Assembly (NCBI GenBank): GCA_921293015.1
Contig: OV121094.1
Location: forward strand, 8,975,448 to 9,039,447
Length of the DNA: 64,000 nucleotides
Origin: Phorcus lineatus
Taxonomy: Eukaryota > Mollusca > Gastropoda > Trochida > Trochidae
Direction of reading: 5' to 3'
Each line of letters starts with the position of its first letter. The first letter of the stretch is position 1. Shown here piece by piece: positions 1,991-63,999 of this stretch. A program made the translations under genes and the position numbers. The notes below the pieces were generated by a model that made no database searches, had not been told where the DNA came from, and saw only the letters and a program-made list of their open reading frames with translations.

Positions 1991-3096
1991 AACAATGTGA
2001 TGACTGTAAGCGAGTCGAGAAAAACTTCAGAATATCCTTGAATCAACCAAATGCCTTTACTGTGCACATGGACTCTTCCTTGTTTGAGGCAGTGAAATAC
2101 AATAGGAAAGAAGAAAAGAAGCGTGTTCTGAATAAATTATCAGCAATTGCATGTGCTCTTCGTAATACGAAAGGTGGGTCGATACTGGTGCATCTCTGTG
2201 GGCAGAAGAAAGAAAACAGATACCTTGGTTTCTTCGACGAGTTCGTGAAGGATGCCCTCACATACCTCATAGAGGACGGAACACTTTATGTGGAGACATA
2301 TAGGCGGTATTGGCTGGACAACTTGAGAAAATTCAAGTCAGAAGTGGGATTTGTATGTATCAATGTCGATAAGAGCAGTAGTGTTTCAATTGTAGATTTT
2401 TACTCCAAGATAAGGAACGACTTTGAAATAACTAAACCATCGCCATTGAACATTTTCACTTATTTTAAATCTTTTACTTCGTCTGTAGACCGAGAGTCAG
2501 AAGCTCCCAAAGTTCGTGGCATAAAGACATCCGATCTTCAAGAATGTAGAAATGTTGAATTAAAATCAGTTTTCAAATGTAAACAGGTAACCAACCACGA
2601 AAAGGTGTCCGATTTTGTAGAATATGTATGGAAAGAACTTCAACTGAAGCACTGCATAGTTTCCATGTCTAAAATAGATGATGGTGGGTCTTATTATGTT
2701 GGAATCGCAGAGAAAAGTTCTGATGGAACACGTTTGGATGTGAAACCAGAACTTCAAGGGTTTGACGTTTGTAAACCTATTGTAGAGTACACGAATGAAC
2801 TCCATAGCAAGTTAAGTTCAGAAATATTGGTTCTGAATCCTGATCTCACCTTTGCTGATGCACCGGATGATCTTATAACAGTCACTTTCCATCCCTTCAA
2901 TACAAAGTTCATTCTTGAAGTTTCAATAAGAAAATTTGACGGTCTTGTGTTCTTTGACAAAGAAGGGCCGCTTGCCTACGTCATTGAAAATAAAGATGTT
3001 CAACGCATGTCTAAAGAGGAAGTATTGGACCGAGCTTTACGATTTTACAGGATCAGAGGCATCCGTTCAGTTATGACACAAACTGTAGCAACTTGA
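1991..3096 (+). CDS. Schlafen core exon, copy 1 (terminal or alternative exon)
   Basis: This exon encodes a two-lobed Schlafen core of about 367 residues. It starts at a good acceptor (ttgtttcag before 1991) in phase 1, giving an N-terminus with Glu-Gln-Cys-Asp-Asp-Cys; the first in-frame residues come from an upstream exon not found. The N-lobe carries 'CALRNTKGGSILVHL' (about 2152-2195) and the 'FVCINVD..' strand. The C-lobe has the ECRNVELK motif, with the two glutamates of the Schlafen nuclease site at 2542 and 2557, then 'DDGGSYYVGIAEK' (to 2715). In vertebrate SLFN13 this core cleaves tRNA/rRNA using two Glu and one Asp; here the Asp position reads Ala-Glu. No SWADL or helicase part follows, so it resembles short Schlafens. 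The stop is at 3096; no clear polyadenylation signal follows. Exon A lies about 580 bases downstream on the same strand. The frame is intact and very similar to copy 2. Family assignment is strong; activity is inferred. Confidence 0.85.
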
Positions 3097-3149
3097 TTAA
3101 CTATGAAAATGAAAAATGATTCATGTAATAAGATTTCAATGGAAAACAG

Positions 3150-3262
3150 CAGGCCTACGTGATCATAAATAACGATATTCAACCTATGTCCAAAGAGGAA
3201 GTATTAGACCGAGCATTGCGACTTACAACATCAAATGCAACCATTTCGCTATGATATCAACG
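3150..3262 (+). pseudogene. Tandem duplicate of the Schlafen exon 3' end
   Basis: Just past the copy 1 stop codon the last ~30 codons of the Schlafen exon appear again, reading approximately 'AYVI.INNDIQPMSKEEVLDRAL', then a divergent tail and stop. It is closer to copy 2 in places ('INNDIQ' versus 'INGDIQ') than to copy 1 ('ENKDVQ'), which suggests unequal exchange or conversion between copies rather than simple slippage. Confidence 0.7.
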
Positions 3263-3661
3263 GTGATAACCTCAGCTAAAGATGATTCATTTACTGAGAA
3301 AAGGGAAACTCATTAAAACTTATTCATGAAATAACACCTCAAAGGAAAACATCCGGTGCACTCCCAGGATTGAATTCTTCAACGAACTAAGGGTATAACT
3401 GAGACAATCTGACGGGAGATCATTGTAGATAAGTAACGTAAATCAAGATAGAAATTTAAAAAGATCAAAAATTATTATTTCATGAGGTAAAGAGGGGGTT
3501 TAATGTTAAAAATACACTATAATTATCAAAATTATATTCAATGATACAGTAAATAGAAAGTTTATTTGTTTATGTATGGATCAATGAATGGATTGATGAA
3601 TATTTAGTTATTTTAATATGAAATGAAAATTGGTATTAACAGTGTATGTATGCCATCACAG

Positions 3662-3775
3662 TGAGGATCCAGTTGGCAATGGCGAGCAATGATTCCTCAG
3701 ATGACAGCATCAGTCCTCTTAATGAAAAGATTTCCTGTATTTTGGGCTGTTCCTCATCAAGTTCTGAGGAATCAG
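3662..3775 (+). CDS. Exon A of module copy 1 (acidic Ser-rich peptide)
   Basis: This short exon contains ATG at 3679 and encodes MASNDSSDDSISPLNEK.. ending in a Ser-Glu cluster (SSSSSEES). It ends at a consensus donor (tcag|gtatgt, exon end 3775) in phase 1. A possible acceptor (catcacag, exon start 3662) is also phase 1 with no in-frame stop before the ATG, so the exon could be internal or the first coding exon. Matching exons are at 42428-42526 and 62989-63105. The Ser/Asp/Glu composition would suit casein-kinase-type phosphorylation, but no function is known. It joins in frame to exon B at 14082, across an intron of 10.3 kb that is only about 170-240 bases in the other copies. Confidence 0.7.
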
Positions 3776-4138
3776 GTATGTATTACAGTTTTTTATACCT
3801 GAAATGTTTAAGGTTATGTTCCAATAAACGATAGCTTTCGTGCACCCGAAAGTGTTATTAAAGCAAAGGAAAAAGTTTGAATACATCTTCTTGCTCATTA
3901 CAAATAATCAAAATGCTAAAAGTGAGAAGGAGATCACACAGTTTGTAGAAAAAGCATGATATAACAATCCAGTACTTCTTATTATCTTTAAACTGGAAAG
4001 CAATCTTTTCTGGATCTAGTGAAAAAATATTGAAACTATTCATAGATAGTTTTCGAGATGTTCCATCCCCAAAAAACTGAAGTATAAAAGAAACTAAACA
4101 TCAAAAGAAGTTCATATTCTGACAAAAGTTCATCACGC

Positions 4139-4249
4139 TTCCCTGACTAATCACCAATCAAGTATCTTTGGGACCAGTTGGGAAGACGACTTAGACGTTT
4201 CGACAGCAACCGGTCACAATACAAAGCTGTGACTAGCACTACACGACAA
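4139..4249 (+). mobile_element. Tc1-type transposase C-terminal relic
   Basis: The frame reads F-P-D-stop-S-P-I-K-Y-L-W-D-Q-L-G-R-R-L-R-R.., the signature of the Tc1 transposase block around the last catalytic acid ('SPDLNPIEHLWDELGRR'). One in-frame stop and the lack of the rest of the enzyme mark it as dead. It lies in the inflated A-B intron of module copy 1. Confidence 0.7.
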
Positions 4250-4575
4250 TGATGTCATCCGACATCTTACCTTTTCCTTGAAAAGACGTGTCTATGCATT
4301 TATTAACTTTAATGGGGTAACACCTGTTAATAACTACAGTATTTATGGAAATCATACATCGTTATGTTACCTGATCTGTCCATGTTTATTTCAAAATATA
4401 TCCCCAGTGGACACAAACAGATATAATGAAGTGACACTTTTAACAAAACACTCCAACATGTCCCGGCAATTTTTAAAATTGAATATCACACATTCTAAAT
4501 GCCGAAAGTTTTCCCTGTTTTCTATAATAACTGACACATGTTGCTGTCACTAGCGTAAGCGAATGTGGCTTGGAT

Positions 4576-4674
4576 ATACTTCTACATCAACCTAAATCTC
4601 CAGATTTGGCACCATTGAACTTCTTCCTCTTCCTCAGTATGATAAACCATTTCTGCGGACGTGGTTTTTGCTAA
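4576..4674 (+). mobile_element. mariner transposase C-terminal relic
   Basis: The translation ILLHQPKSPDLAPLNFFLF followed by 'INHFCGRGF' matches the mariner transposase C-terminal block (HPPYSPDLAPSDFFLF...L.GR.F). Only about 33 codons remain before a stop, with no inverted repeats recognised. It is a second, unrelated transposase fragment in the same intron. Confidence 0.75.
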
Positions 4675-5089
4675 TAATATCAGCCTCATTTCTACAGTCA
4701 AGACATATCTTGAGACCCAGGATGCGGAGATGGAATACTAATGCCATAATTGTACCTTAACATTGCTGGTCCCAATTTCAGTGGAGACTAAATACAAAAT
4801 TCAATAAGTGATGGTTTGATCTTGATTTCTATGTTATTCAACGAACTTTTTAATATACTCTCGCATCTCCATTATCCGTCCACTAATAAAGAGAGGGTGA
4901 AAGTTTTATACGCAACAGCAGAGTATTCAATGATATGTTGGCAACCTATTCATTTATAATATGTTGATTAGAGTTTATATCCAAATCATGCGAAGTTAGC
5001 ATAGGGAACTGTCAGAAAACGTCGATTTTTGAGCACACAAATGCAACTTATGTTGAGGCAGAGAGGTCAAAGACCTAATTCTTGTCTGG

Positions 5090-5400
5090 ATGGAGAAATA
5101 CTGGCTGAAGTCAAATTGTTATCCTCCGACCAACAATACTTAAGTTTTCTCTTGATTTACATGTAGTGTAGGTATCCTGTTCATCCTTGATGGATTAATT
5201 TCAAAAGTACAGGATTCTAGAGTTTGTAAGGTATCTGAATGAGATTCAGAGTTAAATCATGAATTTACCAACATCAGCATGCAATTTAATCTATGATTGT
5301 TCTGACTTGGTGGAATAATTGAAAAAAACACAGAGAAGAGTACAGAGCCTTGAAGAACCCCTGTTTGGAAAACTTTCTATTTTTTATGATGCCAAGAGGA
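5090..5400 (-). mobile_element. LINE reverse transcriptase relic (weak)
   Basis: On the minus strand the stretch around 5370-5290 reads approximately TGVLQGSVLFSVFFSIIPP, which resembles the 'GVPQGSVLGPLLF.IYIND' block of Jockey/CR1-type reverse transcriptases. The rest is too decayed to follow, with several stops. Confidence 0.45.
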
Positions 5401-5529
5401 GGCTGTAATATTTGTAGAAGCTGTAAGTGATCGACCATATCAAATGATAGATTGGATAAAATTTTTACATTTTATATACTTTAGACATCAAGGGAAAATG
5501 CGAGATGAGAGATTTTTTTCGATGATATG

Positions 5530-5690
5530 TGTTAACTCATCATCGCCGAGAGACGCATATATATATGTTAATTAAATGAGATCCTCACAGCGAGAGCCGC
5601 ATATACACGTCCATTAATTAACAGTTTCTCACAGCGAGAGACGCGTTAATTAAAACATCTATTTCACAGCTAGAGCCGCATGTATCGTAT
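5530..5690 (+). repeat. Minisatellite, about four degenerate units of 35-46 bp
   Basis: The core 'tcacagcgagag(a/c)cgc' recurs at roughly 5538, 5584, 5629 and 5668, each followed by an A+T-rich spacer with ttaattaa. Units differ in spacer length and sequence. I see no coding role. Confidence 0.6.
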
Positions 5691-5699
5691 AGTATTACA

Positions 5700-8035: not shown

Positions 8036-8038
8036 GTT

Positions 8039-8470
8039 TTACAAATTTCTACTACAGTCTTCTCGTAAATTATGACTGTGACTGCCTTTTGGCTTCATTT
8101 GTCCGAAAACTGGATCATTGGCTTCCTCTGCAGTAGTCTCAAGAAAACTTGCCAGATGATATATATCAGGATAATATCCGGTATTCCTCAAAACCCCAAC
8201 TGCTTCTCTCCTCCACCTTCCTTGTAAATATGTTGGTAGCTTTTCAACAATTTTACTCGTTCTGATCTGGTTGTCAATCTCATTGATGCGACCCATTGCC
8301 GACAGTGTTACTACACAACTTCTGATATCATCTGAGTAACGTTGTAGCTCAGCGCCATCCCCAGGCCGTAGACATGGACGTTCCGTGACTTTCTGTACCC
8401 AGGCCTTAGAAATAACAAACTGATTACCAAATCGTTCACTCAGAAGTCTCCTTGCCTCATTAAGCTCCAT
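8039..8470 (-). mobile_element. BEL/Pao gag (DUF1759-type) fragment
   Basis: A 143-codon open frame reads ELNEARRLLSERFGNQFVI, then '..LRPGDGAELQRYSDDIRSCV', 'EIDNQIRTSKIVEKLP' and 'EEANDPVFGQ'. This is the conserved core of BEL/Pao retroelement gag proteins. The Met at 8470 is a convenience start; the real protein continued upstream. A likely N-terminal piece lies at 9100-9239, separated by a hairpin insert. No protease, RT, integrase or LTR was found, so this is a relic, though its core frame is intact. Confidence 0.75.
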
Positions 8471-8526
8471 TTGGCGACGTTTAATTTTCCTGTGATTTCT
8501 TTAATTTGTGTGACCGTACAAGTAGT

Positions 8527-14081: not shown

Positions 14082-14854
14082 CTGATGGCAGTGTGGAGTA
14101 TCCTGGAGATATTACGAGAGAACTAAGATCAGAATACCCCGAAGTGTTGGAGCGAGTAAAGACTCTCTATGTTGAAGATGTGGACAAGGCGTATTTCTCA
14201 ACTTCACTGATGAAGGACTGGCGTATCAGACTTAGAGGTTCAACCAGGGTTCTATGTGACGTGTGTATTGTGTCCCGCAAACGACCTGTTACGTTGCTTT
14301 CGTTTGTGAAGGACTTTGAAATTAAGGATAAACACATTAAGCATAACAGTAAAGTCGCAAGGTTTTTGGTTTCTAAAGTCCGGGAACATTTATTCGGGAG
14401 CTTCAGTGTGATATCCGGTGTTATAAACCTGAAGTCGTGCAAGAGTGAGGAACTATTTAGAGAAGAAATTAAGAGTTTGGATGCAGAAGCGAAACTTTGC
14501 TCAGTACCGGGGTGGTTGCACATGAACAATGACAAATGTGAACAGTTGGCGGAGTTCATTGATAATCTTTATTCGGAAGAAGTCAAAGATGAAAGACAGA
14601 CAATTGCTTCAACATTGACTATATATAGTGAAGAGACACTTAGTAGTACAGAAACTAACTTAGCTCACGATTTGGTAGTGTCTCAGTGTTCTGAATCCGA
14701 GACAGAAGTGGAAAATGTACGAAAAAATGTTCGTAGAAGAAGAAAAAGACAAAACCACTCTGAAACGAATTTCAATTCTGCGAAGCTGCGACGGAATTCG
14801 ACCGATCGAAACCCAAACCGGTTTAAGGGCTCATTTCATGACAATTGTCATTGA
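14082..14854 (+). CDS. Exon B of module copy 1 (unrecognised conserved domain, basic tail)
   Basis: The exon joins exon A in phase 1 (S|A-DGSVEYPGD..) and encodes about 257 residues to a stop at 14854. I do not recognise the domain. Residues shared by all three copies include the 'DW' pair near 14217, CDxCxxS (14258-14278), 'PVxLxxF', 'RxxVSKVR' (near 14360-14382), 'GV' plus 'C..E', an 'EA(K/R)' pair and VPxWLHM (about 14506-14526). The C-terminal tail is basic (RRRRKRQ..., then KLRR), resembling a bipartite nuclear localisation signal. Spaced cysteines and a late His could bind metal, but this is a guess. Its constant linkage to a Schlafen core suggests related or alternative function. The frame is intact despite the 10.3-kb TE-filled intron before it. 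Confidence 0.75.
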
Positions 14855-18895: not shown

Positions 18896-19450
18896 TGTCT
18901 CCGCCCAGCTCCATCATAAAGCCTGATATCCTTCGGCCTAAAACGCTCGTATCGCAATATATAGCAAGCCAATGAAATGACTCGCATTTAGCGATAGCAG
19001 CACCACCCGGATGAGAAAATCAAACAATTGTCAATGTAGGCTTTAAATAGCCATGATTTACCAGCCGTAAGCGATACGAGCGTTTAAGGCCGAATTATAT
19101 CAGGGTATATGATAGAGCTAGGCAGAGACAAATCCGCTGATGTAGCAGGATGAACTTGACCCGAAATATATATTTCAAAAACATGACAACAACATTCCAA
19201 CATAACCCATATGCTGCGCCACGAGTACCTTCACGTGTGTGAACTATATGATACTTTGACTAATTTGATCACATCGGCCATATAAAATGATAGGTTTGTG
19301 TATAAACTCTGTATAGGCACACACAATTTATCAAATAACATTTCTAGCTGTAATTCTACAAACATTCAATAAAAATCACTTCTGTCCGTATTCCGAAATT
19401 ACATTAGTAGATTTGCGTATCTGTTATCAAAATTAACATTTGTGTAACCA
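18896..19450 (+). repeat. 555-bp direct duplication, second copy
   Basis: Near-identical to 15425-15979, offset 3471 bases. Its last ~144 bp overlap the start of the 806-bp tandem unit, so that part is present three times in the window. Confidence 0.85.
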
Positions 19451-20917
19451 TTTGTGAATTATTTAAAATTTACCCATTGTTTTGGTTTATGAACATGTTT
19501 GTTATAGATGAAGAGTATTTCAGTTTCCATATGTAAAATTGTTCGTCAACGTCATCAGCAGTTTGAGAGCATTTCTTGACAAACACCATAAATTTTTATC
19601 ATGTCTTCTTTTACTTGTATTAAGTTTCAAAATTGAAACACTAAAAGGAAGACATTCAAAAACGTTTTATATTGACGGTTTAATGCTCATGGTTTTGGTG
19701 AAAATGTTAACTCAGATCAAATAGGACGGGTACATCAAACAGGTTGAAATGATAAACAAAGATACATAAACTTAGTAAGAAATCGTTAGTTAAGCCAAAT
19801 TTTGTTTTTAAGATGAGCAGAATTCATTGAAGCGTAAATAAAATATACTTTTTGTTATTTGCTGTACAATAAAAGATTTGACACCTACCTTAGAGCCACA
19901 ATTACAAAGGAAGTTGTCACGTACACATCTTCAGAGAATGAACAGCTGATTCAATTATGAAATACTGTATGTGCTCAAATGTGTGTGATATTATTTGAAA
20001 GAATTCGTTAGTTAAGCCAAAAAAATTAATGTTTTTAAGATGAGCAAAACTTATTGAAGCGTGAATAAATATACCTTATAACTTTTTGCACTGGATACAA
20101 GGATAGGTAAGCCTCTGTATAGGCACACACAATTTATCAAATAACAATTCTAGCTGTAATTCTACAAACATTCAATAAAAATCACTTCTGTCCGTATTCC
20201 GAAATTACATTAGTAGATTTGCGTATCTGTTATCAAAATTAACATTTGTGTAACCATTTGTGAATTATTTAAAATTTACCCATTGTTTTGGTTTATGAAC
20301 ATGTTTGTTATAGATGAAGAGTATTTCAGTTTCCATATGTAAAATTGTTCGTCAACGTCATCAGCAGTTTGAGAGCATTTCTTGACAAACACCATAAATT
20401 TTTATCATGTCTTCTTTTACTTGTATTAAGTTTCAAAATTGAAACACTAAAAGGAAGACATTCAAAAACGTTTTATATTGACGGTTTAATGCTCATGGTT
20501 TTGGTGAAAATGTTAACTCAGATCAAATAGGACTGGTACATCAAACAGGTTGAAATGATAAACAAAGATACATAAACTTAGTAAGAAATCGTTAGTTAAG
20601 CCAAATTTTGTTTTTAAGATGAGCAGAATTCATTGAAGCGTAAATAAAATATACTTTTTGTTATTTGCTGTACAATAAAAGATTTGACACCTACCTTAGA
20701 GCCACAATTACAAAGGAAGTTGTCACGTACACATCTTCAGAGAATGAACAGCTGATTCAATTATGAAATACTGTATGTGCTCAAATGTGTGTGATATTAT
20801 TTGAAAGAATTCGTTAGTTAAGCCAAAAAAATTAATGTTTTTAAGATGAGCAAAACTTATTGAAGCGTGAATAAATATACCTTATAACTTTTTGCACTGG
20901 ATACAAGGATAGGTAAG
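19307..20917 (+). repeat. Two tandem 806-bp units, almost identical
   Basis: Unit 1 is 19307-20112 and unit 2 is 20113-20917. They begin 'ctctgtataggcacacac' and end 'ggataggtaag'. I saw only a few differences (for example aacatttc/aacaattc and gacggg/gactgg). Either the duplication is very young or two haplotypes were placed in tandem by the assembler. No gene is evident in the unit. Confidence 0.9.
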
Positions 20918-36689: not shown

Positions 36690-37170
36690 GTATCCAGATA
36701 GGTTTCTATAGTTTCATGTTGGTTTCCTTGAAAACTGAAACCTACTTTTGCCCCAGATCCGGATGGTATCCATCACCGTTCTTTACACACTCCTCCAAGT
36801 AGGATCCACTTGGTTTCCGTGATTGAAATTTCATGGTGGTTTCCATGAAAACTGAAACCTACTTTTGCCCCAGATCCGGATGGTATCCATCACCGTTCTT
36901 TACACACTCTTCCAAGTAGGATCCACTTGGTTTCCGTGATTGAAGTTTCATGTTGGTTTCCATGAAACTGAAACCTACTTTTGCCCCAGATCCGGATGGT
37001 ATCCATCACCGTTCTTTACACACTCTTCCAAGTAGGATCCACTTGGTTTCCGTGATTGAAGTTTCATGTTGGTTTCCATGAAACTGAAACCTACTTTTGC
37101 CCCAGATCCGGATGGTATCCATCACCGTTCTTTACACACTCCTCCAAGTAGGATCCACTTGGTTTCCATG
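36690..37170 (+). repeat. Four tandem ~116-bp subterminal units of the CACTA element
   Basis: The landmark 'cctacttttgccccagatcc' recurs at 36741, 36858, 36974 and 37090, spacing 116-117. Each unit carries ggtttcc motifs in both orientations, typical of subterminal transposase-binding arrays. Degenerate units continue to about 37400. Confidence 0.9.
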
Positions 37171-37419
37171 ATTTTAGTTTACTGTAGATTTCCACTTGGT
37201 TTCCTTGTTTAGTCAGTTTATTGTGTGTTTCAACCTGGTTTCCATATTCAGGTTTATTGTAAGTTTCAACTTGGTTTCCGTGTTTTGTTAGTTTAACGTA
37301 GGTTTCAAACTGGTTTCCATATCCTTATATATTGTAAGTTTCAACTTGGTTTCCGTGTTTTGTAAGTTTATCGTAGGTTTCAAATTAGTTTCCATGTAGT
37401 GTTTATTGTGTGTTATGTA

Positions 37420-41379: not shown

Positions 41380-42254
41380 TCATTTTAAAACTCTTCTAGT
41401 GATTCTTCTAAATTTAAAACAAGTTCCAGTGACTGTTGCTACAGTATGGCCTTTCTTAGTAGTTTTCCCCTTCAAAGCAGAGTTTCGATCGATTGAATTT
41501 TTGGAGGGATGACGAGTAGTGCGTCGCACCTTTGAAGATTTCAAATTCGTTTCTGAGCTAATTCTTCTTTTTCTTTTTTTACGAAGACTTCTCGGTAATG
41601 GAGCTCTCAAACTTTCTATTTCTGTCTCGAAAACAAAATCCTGGGAAAGTAACTTATCAACACTTACGCTTCGCTCTTTATTTTCAATTGTCCCCACACT
41701 ATAAGCAGTTGATGCCTGATTTGTCATTTTTTCAACTTCGAATTCTTTGGATTTAAGACTGTCAATGAACTTTACCAAGCACTCATATCTGTCATTGCTC
41801 ATGTGCAACCATCCGGGTACAGAGCAAAGTTTCGCTTCTTTGTCCAAACACCGGATTTCTTCTCTAAATACTTCCTCACTCTGGCATGAATTCAGGTTTA
41901 TAACACCAGATATCACACTGAAGCTCCCGAATAAATGTTCCCGGACTTCAGAAATAAAGAACCGTGCAACTGTACTATTATACTTGATGTGGTCATCCTC
42001 AATTTCTAGGTCCTTGACAAACGACAGCAGTGTAACTGGTCTTTTACCGGACACAATGCACACGTCACATAGAACCCTGGTTGAACCTCGATGTTTGATA
42101 CGCCAGTCATTCATCAGTGAAGATGAGAAATACCCCTTGTCTACATCTTCAGAGTACAGAGTCTTGACTCGCTTCAACACTTCAGGGTATTTTGATTCTA
42201 ATTCTTTTATAATGTCTCTAGACCTGACATTCGTCCCTTGTGGACTACCATCTG
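41380..42254 (-). CDS. Exon B of module copy 2 (unrecognised conserved domain, basic tail)
   Basis: The exon starts after acttcacacattgcag-type acceptor sequence (exon start 42254, phase 1, S|A-DGSPQGTN..) and runs ~291 codons to the stop at 41380. It shares with copy 1 the DW pair, CDVCIVSGKRPVTLLSFVKD, 'VREHLFGSFSVISGVINL', and VPGWLHM (about 41830-41810). The tail 'RKKRKRRISSETNLKSSKVRR' region (41601-41536, 21 residues, quoted here only by its ends RKKRKRR and KVRR) is strongly basic and suggests nuclear import. The last ~40 residues differ from copy 1. It is separated from exon A by only 173 bases. Function unknown; the frame is intact. Confidence 0.78.
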
Positions 42255-42427: not shown

Positions 42428-42526
42428 CTGAATCCTCTGAACTTGATGAGGACCTTCGCAGAATACATGACACCTTTTCATCGAGAGGGTTGATGCTGTC
42501 ATCTGACGAATCACTGCTCGCCATTG
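42428..42526 (-). CDS. Exon A of module copy 2
   Basis: ATG at 42524 opens MASSDSSDDSINPLDEKVSC, ending in a Ser/Glu/Asp cluster (SSSSSEDS) and a consensus donor (tcag|gtatgt, exon end 42428) in phase 1. The possible acceptor (gttatag, exon start 42526) is phase 1 too. It is nearly the same peptide as in copy 1. Confidence 0.72.
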
Positions 42527-43140: not shown

Positions 43141-44246
43141 TTACTTCCTTATCTTGTAATGTCGTAATGCTCGGTCTAATACTTCCTCTTTTGGCATACG
43201 CTGAATATCGCCATTTATTATCAAGTAGGCAAGTGGTCCTTTTTTGTCACAGAACACCAGACCGTTGAATTTTCTTATTGAAACTTCAAGAATGAACTTT
43301 GTATTAAATGGATGAAAAGTGATTGTTATAAGATCCTCCGGTGCATCAGAAAAGGTGAGATCAGGATTTAGAACTAATATCGCTGAACGAAACTTGCTCA
43401 CTAGTTCATTCGTGTACTCTACAATAGGTTCACAAACATCAAACCCTTCAAGCTCTGGTTTCAAATCCAAACGTTTTCTATCAGATTTTTTCTCTGCGAT
43501 TCCAACATAATAGGACCCACCATCATCTATCTTGGACATGGAAACAATGTTGTGTTTGAGTTTAAGTTTGTTCCATACACATTCCACAAAATCGGAAACC
43601 TTTGTATGGTTGGTTACCTGTTTACAGTGAAAAACAGATTTTAGTTCAATATTTCTACATTCTTGAAGATCTGATGTCTTTATGCCACGAACTTTGGGAA
43701 TTTTCCCATCTTCTTCTAGCCTTTGGCCTTCAGATGTCTTCTTGTCCCCAACTGATGACGTCAAAGATTTAAGATAAGTGAAAATGTTCAATGGCGATGG
43801 TTTTGTAATTTCAAAGTCGTTCCTTATCTTGGAGTAAAACTCTAAAATTGAAACACTACTGCTCTTATCGACATTGATACATACAAACCCAACATCTGAC
43901 TCGAAGTTTCTCAATTTGTCCAGCCAAAACCGCCTATATGTCTCAACATAAAGTTGTCCGTCCTCTATGAGGTATGTGAAGGTATCACTCACGAACTCGT
44001 CGAAGAATCCAAGGTATCTGTTTTCCTTCTTCTGCCCACAGAGATGCACCAGTATCGACCCACCTTTCGTGTTACGAAGAGCACATGCAAATGCTGATAA
44101 TTTCTCCAGAACACGCTTCTTTTCTTCTTTCCTTTTGGATTTCACTGCTTCAAACAAGGAAGAGTCCGTGTGCACAATAAAGGCATTTGGTTGATTCGAG
44201 GATATTCTGAAGTTGTTCACAACTCGATTACAATCATCACATTGTT
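43141..44246 (-). CDS. Schlafen core exon, copy 2
   Basis: This exon begins at the acceptor ccttttgtttcag (exon start 44246) in phase 1 and encodes EQCDDCNRVVNNFRIS.. to a stop at 43141, about 368 residues. It is closely similar to copy 1 along its whole length, with an extra ~15-residue polar insert between the lobes (after 'SLTSSVGD'). The N-lobe 'CALRNTKGGSILVHL', the 'FVCINVD' strand, ECRNIELK with its two glutamates, and 'DDGGSYYVGIAEK' are all present; the third acid is again Ala-Glu rather than Asp. Upstream Met codons in the same frame lie in the intron and are probably not used. The 5' exon is not found. The intact frame plus divergence from copy 1 suggests both copies have been kept by selection. 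Confidence 0.85.
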
Positions 44247-44334
44247 CTGAAACAAAAGGTCGAAATGTTTTCATTTCAAAAAGTCATATATCATGGTACT
44301 CGGTCCAAGACCTTAACCAAAGTATCGCAGGACT

Positions 44335-44435
44335 ATATTTGATTTATTTCTATGCACTGTAACCAATCAGTTTCCAAGTTATATATAGAGATCTCCTAGC
44401 AATGCATTTCCAAAACGGAATGGAACCAACGGCCT
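44335..44435 (-). repeat. Segment shared between SLFN upstream introns and 49155
   Basis: The ~100-bp block (aggactatatttgatttatt ... ccaaaacggaatggaacca) recurs at 49154-49253 in the same orientation, and inverted and more diverged at about 1795-1860, upstream of Schlafen copy 1. It marks duplicated module flank or a small repeat. Confidence 0.7.
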
Positions 44436-44439
44436 CAAG

Positions 44440-45440
44440 GACAAATCAGAGACTTGTTAAGTAATAGATAGGACGTATTTCGGAAACCATTTGTGCTCAT
44501 AGGGGCTACACTGTATACTGACTTCTTCCTGTGTTGTTGTCAATCATCAATATAAGTCACTAAATGTCCACATGCACCTTTGAGAATATAAGTATTTTCA
44601 TGTTGTACATAATATGTCTAAACGGACAAACAAATCATACTGCTTATAACTTTTGTGATGGATTTTCACATGCACGTCGTAAGATAATATACACATATGA
44701 TGATTGGTATTCTTAATTTTTAGTTTCGAATGATTATATGATAAACACAATATTCATCAGTCCCACACTTACCTGCTCTTTGAGCCATAGAATAATCCCA
44801 AATCAGCTGTCTACGCGCCGGGCGTTTTCTTTTGAACCAGCAACTGTTAGGCTATTATTCTGACACTCTATCCTTATTGACGAAAAACAAAAAATCAATT
44901 CAGAAACCATTTGAAAAAAAACTTCCTCTTTCCTTAGGGTTTGAAAAAATAAACAAACAAGGAATTAATATACAGAGCCAATTTGAAAAAAAAGCATTTA
45001 AAAATTGCACACAAACAAGAGGTTTTAAAGTATTATCATGTGTGGTCTTTGATATAACGTCATCGAATTTGAAGATACTTGGAGCAACGGTACAGGAGGT
45101 ATGACGTTAATAACCAAAATGTCTACAGCTGCACACCAAAAGTTTGTTTACATACCTCCATATCCTAGTGCAAATACCATGTAATTTGGCGTGTCTTTGA
45201 GGCATCTTAGCATTACGAAAAAAAAGGAATAATTTTGAAGTTCCAAAACAGAAGTGAAGATACATTGAACCTTGACGCAACCGTATGCCTTACCCAACAG
45301 TTAACCGTAATAGTTTTGGCAGGTCATTGAAGTGGCCAGGGGTCAAAATTTCAAAAACAGTTGAATAAAAGAAATTATTACTCGCCCGTGTAAGATACCG
45401 CAGTGTAATATTAATACGGCGATATTAAACTAGTGTAATA
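44440..45440. other. Spacer, no gene recognised
   Basis: One 90-codon frame (44832-45104) has no motif and a low-complexity Lys-rich look; not called. Confidence 0.4.
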
Positions 45441-49441: not shown

Positions 49442-49850
49442 ATTAATTAATTAATTCATTCATTCATTCATTCATTCATTCATTCATTCATTCATTCATT
49501 CATTCATTCATTCATTTTTTATTTTTTTAATATTTATTTATTTATATATTTTTTTAAATTTATTTATTTATTCATTCATTTATTTATTTATTCATTAATA
49601 TTTGTTTGTTCGTTCGTTCGTTCGTTCGTTCGTTCGTTCGTTCGTTCGTTCGTTCGTTCGTTCGTTCGTTCGTTCGTTCGTTCGTTCATTTTATTTTTTA
49701 AATTTATTTATTTATTCATTCATTTATTTATTTATTCATTAATATTTGTTCGTTCGTTCATTCATTCATTCATTCATTCATTCATTCATTCATTCATTCA
49801 TTCATTCATTCATTCATTCATTTATTTATTTATTTATTTATTCATTTTAT
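49442..49850 (+). repeat. Compound microsatellite (ATTC)n-(GTTC)n-(ATTC)n
   Basis: (ATTC)n at about 49448-49514, (GTTC)n at about 49602-49686 and (ATTC)n/(ATTT)n at about 49757-49845. The connecting block tttatttattcattcattta is itself duplicated, so the array grew by block duplication as well as slippage. A frame through it (FIHSFIHS...) is not a gene. Confidence 0.95.
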
Positions 49851-49859
49851 CTAAATTTT

Positions 49860-50705
49860 AATTTAAATTTTTTATTAAAAAATGTAATCTATCTAATTTA
49901 TTTAACTTATTTATTTCCCTGGAAATATGCATGTATATCCCATTTCAAATTACCTACATCCCACCTGATGAACTCGTGGTGTATTTCACGATTTCTTTTT
50001 TTATAAATTAACATCACTGATAAAATATTGGATGTGTCACTCTCATAATTCACGTTGTGTTTCCGTACCTGAAACTCGTGACATTTTCCTATTGTTCCCT
50101 TCCCGTTTATGAGCCTATAATTTAGGTTTATTCATATCATTCAATTATCGATCGACCCCGTAATTAGATGGTTTTATTTACAACAATATCTCAGTATAGA
50201 AGGATATATTGTGTATGGTACATGTCTAACACACATGAATAAAAAAAGTATATTGTTCAAAATATATATTGTCTTGCTGTAGTAGCAAATACTGTTTAAG
50301 GACAAGTCAAACATGCAGCCTTTGCATATACGAAAAGACAGTTGTCTGCAATTCCCGCATGCTTTCCCTGAATAAACGCAATGAATCGGTCAATACATAC
50401 AGGCATGATAATAAATATTTACTCAAAAACGCCTTAAACCAAAAAACAAGACCCAAAACTCAGCTTTCCCAAATTCAAAGAAACGTATAGCCAAAACGCA
50501 ACCTAAGGGCATCAAACCCGCCAATGAGCCCAAGCGCACGTGTGGCCAAAACCTCACACAAGCTGTCACTATCTAATCGGATGAAATAGAGCTGCAATGA
50601 TAGACAGAATATGTTTTTGCAGAAAAATTACTTATCTTTTACATTCTCTGTTACCGTATTCGCTAAATGTTGAGCGCTTTACCAAACTCTAACAAGGTCA
50701 AATGT
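49860..50705. other. Spacer left of the hAT-like element
   Basis: No motif-bearing frame or RNA gene recognised. Confidence 0.4.
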
Positions 50706-51796: not shown

Positions 51797-54720
51797 TCAA
51801 TCGGCAAAAGCCAGGCTACCATCCTGCCAGTCCTCCACAAGTTTGTAGGTATAGATGGAATCTAACTCCCCGTCGTACACAACGTTGTACCACTCGGGGA
51901 AGCCTGGCACCGAAGCAATAACTCTTCCCCGGTAGGAAGTTAGAACTCCATCTTCCTCAAACGTGTGGAGGATGGCTCTACCCGGGAGACGGGGCATTTC
52001 GAACCTGGAACACACCTCATCCTCTGCAGCAACATCGGCAGCAACTGATAAAGTAGCATTATCAAGGAGAATAGCCAAATTTGAACGCAATTGCTGCCAA
52101 GTCAGAATTTTTTTGTTTATTGTGAAATTAAATATTTGTTTGTTTTGATGTTGCTGCCCCAATACATGTTTTCGAAAACGAAGCTGTCCTTTGACAGCTT
52201 CTACTTTAAGTTTTGGATCATTAACGGAGGAGAGATGCCTATCCATGTCCGAGACAGTCAACCACAAACCCTCATTAACTATTTGGAGAGTCAACTTCTC
52301 CTTTAGTTTCGTTTTTTCAGACATCCTGGCTCTCAATTTCGATTCTTTTTCTCTCTGTTGCTCCACCAACTTGCGCTTAATATCCATTTCGCGCTGCCGA
52401 AATTTGTGAATTTGTTCTGCAGTTGCCTGGACAGAACGGTGGAGCAACTCTTTTTTTTCAGGGGAGTTTTTGGTGGAGAGCCATTTAGATGTCTGATTAA
52501 TTTTGTACATAATGGAGGCTTCGTTTGTGAAGACGCTGGCTGAAGGACGAGTACGAGACAGTCTGTCTAAATGTCCAAAAATGGTTTCTGGCAATTTATT
52601 ATGGGGAAGGGTCGAGGCGCTTGGTGTGCTATCATTTACATTTGAAAATTCCGCCACAATTTTGTCTGTGTATAAACCAAACGCCTCAAAAAGCTGTTCC
52701 AATACATGATGCAGGGCGGGACTGCTTGTGTCACGGATCAGATGGGTGAACACATCATCGCACCGAATTTGGATAAAAGATTGAAAGGGGGACGATGAGC
52801 CAGATGAAAATGTCTCGGTGCTTGTTTCTTTGAAATAGGCAGAAAGTCTCGCATAAATATCCTTCATCGGCATCACACCTACTCCACTCTCCATTATTCT
52901 CCAAATTGGACCAGTAATGAGTTTGTCAATAAGCCCCAGAGCCTGGCATTCCGTCACGTAGACAGGGACATTGATGTCCTGCCGGACAGACTGCAGGAGC
53001 CGATTGGCAGAGCCATTACCTGATAGAAAAAACTGCCGAATAGTGTCCGACATGTTAGACAAAACAGCGCTATTATGAAACACGATATTAAATCGGTTGC
53101 CATGGAAGGGTTTCAGTGGAACTTCATTAACCCCATGCTCTTTACAATAAATTGAAAAGGGCACATGACAACCAGATTTATCATCTCCACCTCGGGCGAA
53201 AGCCTTGCAGGAAGTTCGAAGAAGCCGGACACACCCAGATTCAGCACCGCTGCTAAACTGGGGTACCGGCGCTTTGGTGCCACTTTCTTCGAAATGCAAA
53301 GCTTCAAACTTCCGCAAAACCTCATTGGCGATGTCTGCAAGTCCAGTTAAAAAATGAAGACCACAAAAAAAATGGTTGACATGGTTGTGTTGAAATTTCT
53401 CCTTGTCAGAAAATTCATTCCAATTTGGAAGGATTTCAGCATTTATTGAAGAGCGGTATTTATCGAAAAGTGAATTGAAAAGTTTTTCAGTACTAGCCCG
53501 ATCGGACATAGTACTGCGAATTTTGGTCACAATGGACTTACTGACTGGACCTGCAATGTCATCTAGATCCGTAAGGATCTCCTCCAAGGTAGAGAGAGTG
53601 GTGCCTGCCGATTTGTCTAACATGTGACGAACCCCTAAAACTACCGGTGTGTGGTTGCTGTCTGTTATGGCGAATGCCCCAAACTTATCTCCATACTTAC
53701 TGGTCTCATCGGTGTAAAGGGTAGACTCCGAGGCAGTGGCCGCTGTTTCCGCCACCTGAATGCTAGATAAAACATGCATTTTTTTACTCACACTGTTGAC
53801 ATATGTTTTCTGTGGAAGCCTGTCATACTTTACATTTACCATTTTCAAGCAGGCTTCCATCACACCCGAAACCTTAGAGTCTGCGACCCCCAGGTCCTTC
53901 AAACTCAGCACACACTCTTCACACTCCGGTATGTATGTTCTCTGAATTGAATCATACAGAGACTTGAAACCCGAAGTGTCAACAGTGTGTGGAGAGTTTG
54001 AACTTTGGATATTGTTAATGCGCTTCACACGCTTCTCACATTTCACCCGCCGCAACTCTGCAGACAGAGCCCTCTTTGTTATTAACAATTTATTTTTTGC
54101 CATTTTTATACAATTTGTGATTTTTTTTTGATGTTTTAATTCTTTTTGTAATTTTTTTATGTACTTTTTCTTACGCTGGATGATGCTTGATGATTTACGA
54201 TGAGAAGAGTCTTGGGTGGTCTGCGTGGATGATGTGAATGTAAAAGATGACGATGAAGATGACAATGACGATGAAGCCGATGTTGCAGAAGTCATTGTGT
54301 TCTGGGACGGGATAGTTGTTTGAATGTTGGTGATTGTGGCAGGAGATGATGATGATTGAGATGTTGATTGAGATGTTGATGAAGATGTTGTGTCCTGCCA
54401 CTGATGACCGCCCCAGAACGCGCTGTGGAAGAACATTTGAAGTTGTTTTGCATTTCTTGCTTTGTTTTTCACCAGTTTAGTTCTTTTCTCCCACAGCGCA
54501 GATGTCTTTGCTATGAATGTGTTGAGATTCATAGACTCGCAATCGCCACATAATTTTAAAAATATTTTATAACGCAGACCACCCTCTCTGTAATGATGAT
54601 GAAGCCCAAGGCACAACATGTTGGTGATGATGGGAATGGGTTGAATAGTGGAAAGATCCTCCAGTGATATGGGTGGATGTAGGTTCACCTCCCTTAAAGC
54701 ATCTTCAAACTCTTTTACAT
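51797..54720 (-). CDS. Transposase-like protein of the hAT-like element (main exon)
   Basis: The exon starts at the acceptor ttgtgtgtttcag (exon start 54720) in phase 1; joined to ATG-A at 59148 it gives MNVKEFEDALREVNL.., about 975 residues. Layout: N-terminal region with 'LCGDCESM' (1-110), Ser/Thr-rich linker (about 112-180), basic coiled coil (182-236), a likely RNase-H-type catalytic region with 'TLYTDETSKYGDKFGAF' (Asp near 339), 'TMSDRASTEKLFN' (Asp near 408) and 'FFCGLHFLTGL' (Cys and His near 454-457, like the C..H of hAT enzymes), a Lys/Arg/Glu-rich coiled coil (about 800-850), and a C-terminal Tudor/agenet-like module with 'YRGRVIASVPGFPEWYNVVY'. No stop or frameshift. I recall similar uncharacterised proteins as multicopy families in invertebrates. 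Transposase function is inferred from the flanking TIRs and acids, and the catalytic Glu is not assigned. Confidence 0.8.
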
Positions 54721-54899
54721 CTGAAACACACAATTTTAAACAATGAAGAAATGAAAACCACTTAAAAATTACATATGGGTAAAAGTAGAATATAACAAGC
54801 GTAAAAAAAATAAAGATCCGTTTGGTGAACATTTACAAACCTTCCACACACATTAAAAAGCACAACCTACTTCATACCCTCTATATTTGTTACGACACC

Positions 54900-59324: not shown

Positions 59325-59449
59325 CACGCACGGCCGAATCATTTTGTACAGGATCGAAGAGAGAGGTAGGTTGTTCGACGCGAGCTCCCTAACAAAATCA
59401 CGCTGTGTTTTTTGAACAATTTTTTATCGATCAAATGTTACTGATGGCA

Positions 59450-59806
59450 TGTTCAAGTACATGTATTAGAAGGAAACGAATATAACTTCAAAAGTGGCCA
59501 CTTACTCCATGTACGGGAAAACCTGACATACGCATCACAAAATTTAATATATGTTATCAAATGCAGTGGTTGTGACGAAGATTACATAGGACAAACGGGG
59601 GAGACACTCAATCAAGAGTGAGGGTCCATAAACAGCAATCAGGGACCCGTCCTGCCGCTACATTCCACTGATTGGTCATTTAGAAAGATGCGTCGGGGAT
59701 AATTTTAAGATATTTCCCTTCTATAAAGTCGCGAAAAGAGAAAGAGGAAAGAAATTACTTCATTAAACTTTTCAAGCCACAATTAAATGCAATTAATGTC
59801 ACCTAA
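59450..59806 (+). mobile_element. Penelope-like GIY-YIG endonuclease relic
   Basis: The frame near 59543 reads LIYVIKCSGCDEDYIGQTGE, the GIY-YIG signature of Penelope-like element endonucleases with its Cys pair. After a frameshift come 'VRVHKQQ' and, at the end, 'REKEERNYFIKLFKPQLN', the usual C-terminus. Several frameshifts and stops. The hAT-like element ends 58 bp to its left, close to or within this older element. Confidence 0.75.
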
Positions 59807-59809
59807 CTA

Positions 59810-61540
59810 TGTCCATATCTAAAAACTGCTGTTATTATTATATACGTGATTGATGTAAAGTAATGACGTCACCAATCTGTGGGTACGCATCGATTGCCAT
59901 GACTTATGCGCCCCTTGTTCTCTGACGTCAACGTCATTAATTAAGACCCTATGATGATCAATGAATAGGGTGAAACCGGTCGGGGATTCAATTCATTTCC
60001 AGACTTTTGTTTTTTTATATATCATTCTATACATATATATTAAGCATTAAACGGCTAGTTAAAACAGGTACAAAATGGAACTACTGAAACCGTTTGCCAA
60101 AGATAAATTTCCATCTTCTTTTTCATTTATAAAACACTTGAGTTTTCTATATTACTTTTTTTATATTTCATATATATATATTTTCCCTCATTTCAGCCGA
60201 AAAATTAATATATCTTGCTTTGAAAGTTTAAAAATGAGAATAATATAAATTCATCGAAGGTTTCTACTCATGCACAAGTCTTATAGCAAACGTCACTATG
60301 AACCGCGCCACTCTGCAGTTATTTTCTTGCCCCTAAAACACTAACAGCACTTACTTTTTATTACATTTTCCCGCATTTAATACAACTTACCCCTCTTCAT
60401 TTTATTACATACATACTTTTAATTACGCACTTTTGACTCAAGGGAAGACAGATATTTCATCAAAGTTTTATTTTGCTAAAAGCACACACGCAAATTATAA
60501 TCAAAGGGCGGTATCAAAATTAATGATTTATGGAACGACTGAAATCTGAATGAATTATTTTGTTATTTCATTTTTATGAGTCCATTAATTAACTTTGGTT
60601 TCTGATACAATGGTTAATATAATGATAAAAAGTAGGCTCTTCCGTTTAATGTTTATATAATAGTTAACCTACGATACCTCTATTCGAATTAACTTTAAGA
60701 ATGACATGTTGATATACAATGATGATATGCATTTAACAGTGATGCATTTTTTTCTTCAAAATAATAATACAAATATCTACAATCCATCAGCCCAATCAAA
60801 CCGAGCATGATTATCACATCTTGTGTATGTAATAAAACATTTCTTTTAATACTTTTTTGCATATTAAAAACATTTGTAAGGAGGATTGTTCAAATTCATT
60901 CTGAATCTTAGTTAGTTTAGCATTATAACGTATACAAATTACAAGTATTGCAAATATAATGACTTCATGCATGTTTAACATAATTCACTGGTTTCGTATT
61001 GTCGTAAATTAGTTTATTTCCAATATGGTTAATCATAAATGATGACACATTTTCAATATGAGCACATGTGCACATATCACTTTTGCCAAGAAACGATTGT
61101 TTCAGCGCGAGTTACCGTATCATGTCGTCTGTGACGTCATCAAACCATTGTTCGTGACGTCATTGAAGCGGGCCGCCGCAAAGAAAGTAGGCCGCTTTCC
61201 GTGTCTTAAATGAAATAGAATCGGTAATAAAGAAATTATAACCCTCGGAATTGTGTCATATGACACACTTCCTCGGGTAATAATCTCTATATATACGTAT
61301 ACATATCAAAAGGATTTACATAACGTGCTGCATCTTCATGACATGTCATGCGCATATGAAAAATCAAGTGTAAAAGCGTGATGGCGATACATGATATGAC
61401 AGCACGACAATAGTAGTATTATGGAAGTATTGTCTTCAAATATGCATGTTTCATTAGAAAAAAGGCGTATTATGTTAATTTCAATCAGGTTACGTTAATG
61501 TGATTCAGTTAGATTTCTTCAATGTTTTTCTATCTTTTGT
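59810..61540. other. Spacer with CRE palindromes, no gene seen
   Basis: TGACGTCA occurs at 59864, 59923, 61132 and 61155. A short hairpin (taaccctcggaa ... ttcctcgggtaa region, about 61240-61282) is present. No coding frame recognised. Confidence 0.5.
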
Positions 61541-61544
61541 GTAT

Positions 61545-61712
61545 ATGTCCTTGGTCCGCCTTTTACGCAAAACACAATTCATTCCAAATATCTGATGGCT
61601 CAACTCAATAAAAACATATTTTGGAAGTGTTCCTATAATGTAAGTTGTGGCATCGCCAAAAGTTCCATTGTAATTAAGAACTGAATTTTCAGAAGTTTTT
61701 CAAATTGATCTA
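61545..61712 (-). pseudogene. Schlafen pseudo-exon fragment (C-lobe end)
   Basis: The minus strand matches, with decay, the C-lobe end of the copy 3 exon: 'VLNYNGTFGDA' survives as in the living copy 'VLNYDGTFGDAP', and the DNA shares 'cttggtccgcctttt.cg.aaaacacaatt'. Stops and indels break the frame. It lies just beyond exon B of copy 3, so a further Schlafen exon once stood there. Confidence 0.75.
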
Positions 61713-61940
61713 GTCTATCAGCTTGAAAATTAAGTTTTGAGTCTTTGTTACAGCTAATCGTCCTTGATCGATCATTGTCACCCATCTCTATTTCGTTCAA
61801 GACTACTTCCATTGAATTTCTCCAACTATGCCGTCATCATAGTGGATACAGACGTTTTCTCATCAGCGACATCTGACAAAGTTTGCTCAGTGTCTCCAAC
61901 TGAATATGCTTACGTTCCTTTGTGTCAAAGGCTTTTTTTG

Positions 61941-62749
61941 TCAACGAGACTGTTTCTTTAGTTCATGTATTGAGTCCGACACATCAATCCATTGTTTCCC
62001 GCTTTTCTGACCCATTCTAAGAAATATTCCAACAATCTGTGAACGTCGTGCTCCGTCCATGTGTAACCAATTCGGAACGAACTTCTTTCTTGCTTCAGAC
62101 TGGAGTTTTTGCCTCTTCGACATGAATCTGTCTTCAGTGTTGCAGTCTGCTTCATCGAAAACACCATTTAGAGCTGTGAAGTTAGAGTGGGAGACTTTTC
62201 GAACTTTTGAAACGAAATGCCTCGTGATCTTTGCATTGTAGCGAAGGATTTCATCAGCATCCCCACCCTGGTGAAAAGTAAAAAGACAAACAGGCAGAGT
62301 GTCCGAAAAGACACATGCGTCACAAATCACTTTTGGTGGAACATCTGAAGAAATGGTCCAATCTCTCATAAAGGATGCAGAAAGATATATAATGGCTTCA
62401 TTTTGCTTAATCAAATCCAATAATCGTAACTTTATTGTTGAACTGAACAGGTCTTGTGGCAAGTCATTTCCATTTTCGAACATTTGACATTGAAACAACC
62501 TTTGAAATGTCTTATATCCGGTTTCCCTTTCTTTGGACGTTCGATGTCCTGAAAATGCTTTTAACTTTGGCAAAGAAATTAAAGGATCTTTCAGCCTCGG
62601 CGTAGTCTGTCCTGTCGATTCAGTTGCAGAGGGCGGTGTTGGTGTTGAAGAGCGGATCGTTAGTTTTGTTGGGAAGAGTTGGCTTAAGTCTCTTTGCATG
62701 TCCATTGACCCGCGCCCACTATCACGTCGACTATATATCACATGATCCA
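61941..62749 (-). CDS. Exon B of module copy 3 (divergent)
   Basis: The exon starts after the acceptor ttactttcag (exon start 62749, phase 1, V-DHVIYSRRDSGRGSMD..) and runs ~269 codons to 61941. It keeps the shared core: MRDW, ICDACVFSDTLPVCLFTF, 'NAKITRHFVSKVR', 'GVFDEADC..EDRF', VPNWLHM (about 62075-62055). Compared with copies 1 and 2 it has a longer Ser/Thr/Pro-rich N-terminal part and lacks the basic C-terminal tail, so cell location may differ. It is much more diverged, indicating an older split. Function unknown. Confidence 0.75.
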
Positions 62750-62988
62750 CTGAAAGTAATAAAGGTATTGTATATTATAAAACAGGGAAGTGGTTCTCAA
62801 TGTAATTGATACAATAACATTCTAAGCCAAATTCAAAAGATTTTTCAAACAAATATTGATACAAATCTAGAGAGATAATAGCTTATGATACAAATAAAGG
62901 CAGCGAAATAAAAAAAAAAAATGAGGTAAGAATATTGCAAGTAAAGCAAAATTACCATTTATAGTCTTTCCAATTAGCTTATAATCAC

Positions 62989-63105
62989 CTTTTTTGTCAA
63001 GGGTCTCATCACTTGAACTATTGCACATGTGCAGAAAGGAGGTTATTTCCTCATCGGACATGTAGGTGCCGTCATCTGATTGGTGACTTGAAGACATTAT
63101 TCCCC
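62989..63105 (-). CDS. Exon A of module copy 3
   Basis: ATG at 63097 opens MSSSHQSDDGTYMSDEEITS.. to 'SSSDETLDKK', again acidic and Ser-rich. Two phase-1 donors are possible (aaag|gtgatt, end 62989; aatg|gtaatt, end 62956). The acceptor gttgtttag ends at 63106, and its TAG is also the stop codon of the Schlafen frame, so there is no spacer between the two coding parts. Confidence 0.65.
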
Positions 63106-63999
63106 CTAAACAACCAATAAGGGACAGACAAGAAACTCAAAAGGAATCTTTGCAAGCCACTCGTCGCGTTCCAAACGTCTTATTGTCCCCACCTTATCTA
63201 TTGTGTATGCCCTTGGTCCGCCTTTTTCGTAAAACACAATTCCGTCAAATTGTCTGATGGATACCTCAAGAACAAATTTCTTTGGAAGCGATTTTGGTAC
63301 AGGATGAAAACAGATGTCTACAAGGTCAGTTGGGGCATCGCCAAACGTTCCGTCGTAATTTAGAACTGAAATATCAGTAGTTATCATAGTTTGAATTTCA
63401 GCTTTAAGACAACGGCCCTCGTCTGGGAGCTCAAAACCTTCAATTTCTGCAGATTTTGTCGGGTAAGGGTTTAGATTCTGGTTGTTCTCGGCAATTCCTA
63501 CATAGAATGACCCCCCTTCTGATATTTTTGACATTGACGTCACATTTTCCCTCAGTTTAAGATTCACCCAAATGAAGTTGGTTAAAGTTTGAACGTCGTT
63601 GGTGTCAATGCAACACTTCGAGACGGATTTGAACTCGATGTTTCTGTTTTCTTGAAGTACCTGCAGCTCTATGCCGCGCAAAACCGGAAGCTGAAGATTG
63701 ACGTTAGCTTTCAAGGATACAAGAGCAGCAAGAACGTTCAATGGCGTTGGTTTCACGTTTTCAAAGTCGTTCCTTATTTTCGTGTTGAAGTCAACTGTAG
63801 AAAGACCATTAGTTTTGCTAACGAATATGCAGATGAAGTCTTTCTCGTCCTTGAATTGTTCCTGATCACTTAGCCAAGACCTCCTGAACACATCAACGTA
63901 TAACTGCCCGTTCTCTATCAAGTAGGTGAAGGCATTGCCCACAAACTCGTCAAAATAACCAAGGTACCTGTCTGTCTTGTCGTGCCCAAATAGGTGCAC
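63106..63999 (-). CDS. Schlafen core exon, copy 3 (partial, cut by window edge)
   Basis: The frame enters from the window edge at the N-lobe (HLFGHDKTDRYLGYFDEFVG..) and ends at TAG 63108-63106, about 297 residues visible. The C-lobe shows ENRNIEFKSV (two glutamates), 'EGGSFYVGIAEN' (again Ala-Glu at the third acid) and 'KFVLEVSIRQFDGIVFYEKG'. Overall similarity to copies 1 and 2 is moderate. The last ~15 residues (IPFEFLVCPLLVV) do not match the others and may be read-through of the pyrimidine tract of the next acceptor; the natural end could then depend on splicing. The start of this exon lies outside the window. Confidence 0.8.
   Translation of the reverse strand: MHLFGHDKTDRYLGYFDEFVGNAFTYLIENGQLYVDVFRRSWLSDQEQFKDEKDFICIFVSKTNGLSTVDFNTKIRNDFENVKPTPLNVLAALVSLKANVNLQLPVLRGIELQVLQENRNIEFKSVSKCCIDTNDVQTLTNFIWVNLKLRENVTSMSKISEGGSFYVGIAENNQNLNPYPTKSAEIEGFELPDEGRCLKAEIQTMITTDISVLNYDGTFGDAPTDLVDICFHPVPKSLPKKFVLEVSIRQFDGIVFYEKGGPRAYTIDKVGTIRRLERDEWLAKIPFEFLVCPLLVV

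Follow-up and report, generated by a model that had tools for sequence, protein, structure and literature searches.

Schlafens are antiviral proteins in vertebrates, and Schlafen-like proteins of invertebrates are present in public databases. Among the described members of the family, SLFN13 carries an E/E/D active site and a CCCH zinc finger (PMC5862951), the M domain of SLFN12 is required for PDE3A binding, with the complex formed together with certain small molecules raising the ribonuclease (RNase) activity (PMC9256597), and a mussel transcriptome lists Schlafens with the genes most upregulated after Vibrio (PMC7772429), as far as the available text of these reports goes. Here we analyzed a stretch of 64,000 nucleotides (nt) from the gastropod Phorcus lineatus (C29:8975448-9039447, within a genome of 958 Mb in 74 contigs), in the following called the window. 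It hosts three loci in which a Schlafen core exon is followed by a small acidic exon (exon A) and by exon B, which we assign to the Schlafen M domain on the basis of profile comparisons. With a probability of roughly 55%, we propose this to be a split Schlafen locus, encoding core and M domain as adjacent open reading frames (ORFs) whose products would be co-expressed, bind each other, and form an RNase system tied to stress or defence. The available text of the literature searched, its invertebrate-relevant part being the mussel transcriptome and PUCH of C. elegans only, gave no description of a split core/M locus.

An earlier note on this DNA had described the order of core exon, exon A, and exon B on a single strand, which was confirmed for all three loci of the window. 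The same holds true for the acidic and Ser-rich character of exon A, which is ATG-started and rich in Ser, Asp, and Glu. The motifs listed there for exon B (DW, CDxC, VSKVR, and VPxWLHM) are found in the three window copies, with CDxC being lost in some distant paralogues (e.g., those labeled L001, L031, and L036). The three loci are composed as follows.

299..314 (+): locus 1, candidate first coding exon, 5 codons, phase-1 donor; the only one to exceed 10.5 bits (at 11.0) within the 1985 nt upstream
1991..3096 (+): locus 1, Schlafen core exon with its own stop; homology via a 10-core profile, the copy alone being without Pfam match
3679..3775 (+): locus 1, exon A, ATG-started, Ser-rich and acidic
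14082..14854 (+): locus 1, exon B, Schlafen M domain and basic tail; PF21026 at E-value (E) 0.0016, under the curated cut-off, and profiles
44773..44788 (-): locus 2, candidate first coding exon, 5 codons, phase-1 donor
43141..44246 (-): locus 2, Schlafen core exon with its own stop; PF04326 at E 0.1 and 10-core profile
42428..42524 (-): locus 2, exon A
41380..42254 (-): locus 2, exon B, M domain and basic tail; PF21026 at E 0.017, under the curated cut-off, and profiles
63106..64000 (-): locus 3, Schlafen core exon with its own stop, truncated by the window edge; PF04326 at E 0.046, C-lobe alone 0.016, and 10-core profile
62989..63097 (-): locus 3, exon A, its ATG 8 nt past the core stop
61941..62749 (-): locus 3, exon B, M domain; PF21026 at E 0.018, under the curated cut-off, and profiles

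The identity of the core exon, already named as Schlafen in the earlier note, was borne out by a profile of ten cores, two from the window and eight from the same genome. Comparison of this profile with the PDB yielded ten matches at E<=1, all of them Schlafens, with SLFN11 as the best (9.8e-10). Most of the score is contributed by the C-lobe; the N-lobe aligns in register and is weak alone. Single cores matched PF04326 in two of the three window copies. Judged by these profile matches, the core of the first ORF is a Schlafen N-domain consisting of N- and C-lobe. Three acids (E208, E213, and E264 in the numbering of the locus 2 core, P0004) are invariant in the three window cores (E/E/E). In the 10-core profile alignment they fall together with the SLFN11 stretches ESQSIEFK and GGSLFIGVDD, and they coincide with the E/E/D catalytic positions of SLFN13. 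Across the ten aligned cores, E208 is kept in all, the third acid in nine, and the second Glu in five, with Gln occupying this position in the other five. By homology the core has the fold of a tRNA/rRNA-type endoribonuclease; its activity is probably metal-dependent and aimed at structured RNA, tRNA being an example.

Exon B had been regarded in the earlier note as an undescribed partner domain, in that view unrelated to Schlafen, and single-sequence searches alone would leave room for this assumption. PF21026 (SLFN_GTPase-like) is the best Pfam family for all three window copies, at scores of 15.1-18.5 bits that are all below the curated cut-off of 27, and the exon B query P0005 alone retrieved nothing from the PDB at E<=5; the strict SWADL motif and the distant M ORFs, both taken up below, point the same way. 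The profiles, however, lead to the Schlafen family. A three-sequence M profile matched six PDB sequences at E<=10, five of which are SLFN12 or SLFN14 (best E 0.008), with the alignment centered on the SWAVDL region, and its full-ORF version likewise gave five Schlafens out of six. Extension to 13 sequences resulted in 15 matches at E<=1, the top nine all being Schlafens (SLFN14 2.9e-7, SLFN5 3.9e-6, SLFN12 5.4e-6, SLFN11 0.15). Reversed exon B sequences, used as control, remained without any match (2/2). A PF21026 search of the own genome returned two ORFs above the cut-off (L001 and L002), compared with none in 14 control genomes. L001 (C25:27.865M) reaches 29.5 bits against the cut-off of 27 and matches exon B of locus 2 pairwise at E 1e-8 over 92 residues, thereby providing a same-genome bridge from exon B to PF21026. 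The best Pfam match, the 3- and 13-sequence profiles, and this bridge rule out the undescribed domain, to which we assign a practically negligible probability. In terms of sequence, exon B is the Schlafen middle (M, SWAVDL or "GTPase-like") domain and thus a known one.

Extension of the analysis to the whole genome showed that the partnership of core and exon B, supposed to be fixed in the earlier note, indeed is so in this genome. The query P0005 detected 28 exon B places and the core query P0004 91 core pieces, equal to 74 loci after merging. A same-strand core lies upstream within 15 kb at 26 of the 28 exon B places, at distances from 512 bp to 11 kb, the chance expectation being 5.8e-4 per exon B place if places are assumed to be uniform and independent. 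With exon B of locus 3 as query (P0006), 25 places were found, two of them new (C13:2375801 and C29:44719201, the latter interrupted by a single in-frame TGA). Coordinate comparison places a core 5-6 kb upstream of each, leading to 28 out of 30 places; for L001 the core is located ~5.9 kb upstream. Since the genome search scored best candidates only, the number of pairs represents a lower bound (at least 28). The converse situation, in which exon B would mostly occur without a nearby Schlafen, was not encountered in this genome. The supposed expansion of the unit was likewise apparent from the 74 merged core loci and from thirteen pairs in one 305-kb array (8.936-9.240 Mb of C29). Remaining pairs are found elsewhere on C29 and on C9, C7, C13, C25, C2, and C15, so that the linkage is not merely that of one tandem array. 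Core distances and exon B distances correlate with r 0.98 across 15 loci (a value reached by none of 5000 permutations), indicating that the units duplicate together. Two fragmented core loci inside the array (C29:9126423-9127517 and C29:9178213-9179307) consist of matching pieces; no exon B was found with them.

This close co-duplication speaks against a pair of independent neighbor genes, i.e., a core-only Schlafen and an M-domain protein with own promoters and unrelated roles, an explanation we consider quite unlikely. This explanation is in agreement with the separation of stop and start and with the 46 of 74 merged core loci that are without exon B by the two protein queries (P0005 and P0006). 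The partners missing there may, however, merely be divergent, because the second query found two more. Furthermore, stop and start are so close at 10 of 18 loci (gaps of 8-25 nt) that a promoter would have no room between them, though the core exon could house one.

These 18 loci are the pairs, out of 28, with DNA spanning the core end to exon B, and they were subjected to the full anatomy test. In every one of them the core frame closes in its own stop, and the ATG of exon A lies 8-616 nt beyond this stop. Exon A itself has a Ser/Asp/Glu content of 44-59% and a phase-1 donor of 8.5-12.1 bits throughout, and exon B a phase-1 acceptor (18/18); the A-B intron is of phase 1 at all three window loci and spans 10 kb in locus 1. 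Within the last 40 core codons, a phase-1 GT donor of at least 7 bits was found at none of the 18 loci, the maximum being 5.3 bits. Among 600 random control windows, 14.5% hold any exon of such kind and 1.5% one with 40% Ser/Asp/Glu. Eight copies of the locus-3 type share a stop-to-ATG gap of 8 nt, with the stop being TAG in six and TAA in two. In the two TAA copies the AG preceding the ATG is shifted by one base; a spliced frame would be broken by this shift, an ATG start would not. Six more distant cores, including L043 (with the M exon L031 located 3 kb downstream), stop within ~5-30 residues of a conserved EW motif, and a 19th pair outside the 18 (C25:27.87M, comprising the core of L001) has a core stop, with its phase-1 donors not exceeding 2 bits. 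Toward the other end of the first ORF, the candidate first exons of loci 1 and 2 provide five codons with an ATG and a strong phase-1 donor before the core exon. Each is unique above 10.5 bits in 1985 nt, compared with 0.06 in random windows and 0.01 of such length, the 10.5-bit cut-off having been chosen after the first candidate (11.0 bits) was known.

From this anatomy we infer, as the simplest reading, that core and M domain are two proteins. As the gaps of 8-25 nt at ten loci offer no promoter room in between, the two ORFs are likely to share one message or to arise by alternative use of phase-1 exons under a common promoter. A conserved two-ORF locus, delivering RNase core and M partner as two proteins via a dicistronic message or alternative phase-1 exons and working in trans, is put forward here in a tentative manner. 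The competing view of an ordinary fused group II Schlafen would require in-frame splicing via weak, non-canonical, or micro-exon junctions, with the ATG of exon A being an internal Met. Vertebrate group II/III proteins are fused according to the available text of PMC9256597, and order, strand, and co-duplication are what is expected of a single gene; the 19th pair, lacking an exon A of the expected kind, fits as well. We nevertheless rate the fused gene as unlikely, given the consistent lack of a phase-1 donor at the core end (18/18) in comparison to the strong donors of exon A, and given the 8-nt gap and shifted AG of the locus-3 type.

Comparison of the window copies revealed that the core of locus 2 shares 81% identity with locus 1 and 47% with locus 3, the corresponding values of the exon B ORF being 63% and 29%. 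Between loci 1 and 2, DNA identity amounts to 86-92% for the core exon, 85% for exon A, and 83% for exon B, and the ratio of nonsynonymous to synonymous substitution rates (dN/dS) to 0.36, 0.24, and 0.47, respectively. Core, A, and B are thus under purifying selection between these two loci; no dN/dS is given against locus 3, owing to saturation at synonymous sites. Loci 1 and 2 have diverged less at the synonymous sites of the core than at those of A and B together (Fisher p 0.002), and decayed core remnants are located on both sides of the intact core of locus 1. Together with a third one near locus 3, these remnants have no A or B attached.

1685..1850 (+): decayed remnant of the core-exon start and its upstream intron; self-BLAST 82-84% to pieces of 44175-44446
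3153..3231 (+): decayed remnant of the core-exon end; self-BLAST 86% to 43151-43230
61531..61697 (-): decayed remnant of the core-exon end, locus-3 type; self-BLAST 81-83% to pieces of 63195-63382

The lower synonymous divergence and the flanking remnants suggest that the core exon of locus 1 was duplicated or converted separately. Such remnants, as well as internal stops in some own-genome matches to the core and exon B queries, would also be expected if the copies were mostly decaying in transposon-rich DNA with little function left. Open frames, dN/dS values of 0.24-0.47 between loci 1 and 2, and conserved junctions stand against this scenario, which we regard as very improbable.

Under the proposed model of a split Schlafen locus, the first ORF (tiny ATG exon and core exon, 373 amino acids at loci 1 and 2) would encode a predicted metal-dependent endoribonuclease with an acidic triad, its presumed substrates being structured RNAs, for instance tRNA. 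Composed of the acidic exon A together with exon B, the second ORF (289-323 amino acids) would provide the M domain, which is fused to the core in vertebrates. Both proteins would be made together from one locus and then bind each other, with the M-domain protein acting as a specificity or regulatory subunit of the RNase core; a partner in trans is proposed in view of the M-domain behavior of SLFN12 and the assembly of PUCH. The outcome would be a stress- or defence-linked RNA-cleavage system, enlarged through tandem duplication. As a guess, a role in binding or nuclear entry may fall to the acidic exon A and to the basic tails encoded at loci 1 and 2.

Several results weigh against this model and the assignments underlying it. 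In respect to the core, P0001 and the C-lobe of P0004 gave no Pfam match, one of three cores scanned with Pfam lacked a Schlafen family match, profiles built from three cores retrieved no Schlafen from the PDB, and P0004 alone matched just a bacterial protein there (E 0.49). Gln takes the place of the second catalytic Glu in L039, L041, L043, L044, and L004, i.e., five of the ten aligned cores; many copies may therefore not cleave RNA, and these five are possible non-cutting paralogues as judged from this residue. Regarding the M domain, PF21026 was absent from five of seven distant M ORFs scanned with Pfam, L002 showed no real pairwise match to P0005, and the strict SWADL motif, S-W-(A/S)-(V/G/L)-D-(L/I/V) as defined in the available text of PMC8875196, occurs in none of the three window copies, all of which keep the W. 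Two of the 28 exon B places (C7:25153629 and C50:24811) have no core within 15 kb, and L002 has none among the listed core loci. As for the gene anatomy, splice scores were derived from a generic textbook matrix rather than from one trained on this animal, exon A was picked by script as the most Ser/Asp/Glu-rich candidate, and the 18 loci tested are partly recent duplicates. The core of L016 has a phase-1 donor of 5.3 bits, the core of locus 2 an interior one of 7.3 bits at 43520. Phase-0 donors, all of which would be out of frame with A, are present at 5 of 18 core ends (~8 bits) and, in L025 and L026, 123 nt ahead of the stop (9.9 bits). The 5.6-kb gap of the 19th pair contains no acidic ATG exon, and non-canonical donors or a missed micro-exon could restore a single fused ORF.

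With at least 30 M exons, 74 merged core loci, and a few P-loop-like M ORFs in an invertebrate, the architecture known from vertebrates would be of much greater age. Should core and M domain truly be separate proteins, the system offers a natural route to ask for the effect of the M domain on the RNase. If the two-ORF reading is true, the fused vertebrate Schlafen would represent one arrangement of an older two-part system, which here would have expanded to dozens of pairs in the manner of innate-immune families.

Apart from the three loci, the window contains a 1011-amino-acid open frame (51797-54832, -) with a C-terminus matching Spin/Ssty at 27.7 bits versus a Pfam cut-off of 25. An ORF at 8039-8500 (-) shows a match to DUF1759 below the cut-off (E 1.3e-4), which we take to be a retrotransposon-associated family, and a short ORF at 59445-59621 (+) is, by eye, presumably a GIY-YIG/Penelope-type fragment. 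A tandem duplication of ~805 bp with 99.75% identity spans 19307-20917. Tandem arrays are present at 36710-37409 and 49442-49916, comprising 116-bp units followed by shorter units that share 'TGGTTTCC', and an ATTC-rich array.

Other libraries were scanned as well. No Pfam helicase match was obtained in the 20 scanned of 31 window ORFs of at least 90 amino acids, and a PHROG 'DNA helicase' match to P0001 (E 0.064) is not credible. Prokaryotic or phage relatives were confirmed neither in viral contigs nor in genome contigs (the latter for the M domain only), PADLOC and NCBIfam gave no relatives, PHROG gave weak scattered matches only, and Rfam 0 RNA families at the gathering threshold.

Among the known systems, the window units resemble the vertebrate group II Schlafens (SLFN12, SLFN12L) in having an N-domain followed by an M domain, with exon B ending without a helicase match in all three copies. 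They differ in that the core has its own stop and the M domain its own ATG behind an acidic exon, and in the absence of the strict SWADL motif. Vertebrate group III (SLFN5, 11, 13, 14) likewise has both domains, whereas no helicase part was seen in the window units. A further likeness to group III comes from M ORFs of this genome with P-loop-like extensions: L002 has an NPHP3_N (P-loop) match above the cut-off and a weak SLFN-g3_helicase match in Pfam, and the frames of L001 and L031 extend into P-loop-like stretches by eye and alignment only. L031 (C13:17380109, +; Pfam none for this stretch), with a core 3 kb upstream, may represent a group III-like unit within this genome. Another M exon, L016 (C29:8937609, +), has a 498-amino-acid open frame with a long C-terminal extension unlike the window copies. 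Finally, PUCH of C. elegans (TOFU-1, TOFU-2, and SLFL-3/4), as described in the available text of PMC10567574, is, like the proposed split Schlafen, an invertebrate Schlafen-fold RNase formed from separately encoded proteins. It has a single SLFN fold per subunit, in contrast to the two-lobed core with an M partner proposed here, a distinction made by description rather than by sequence.

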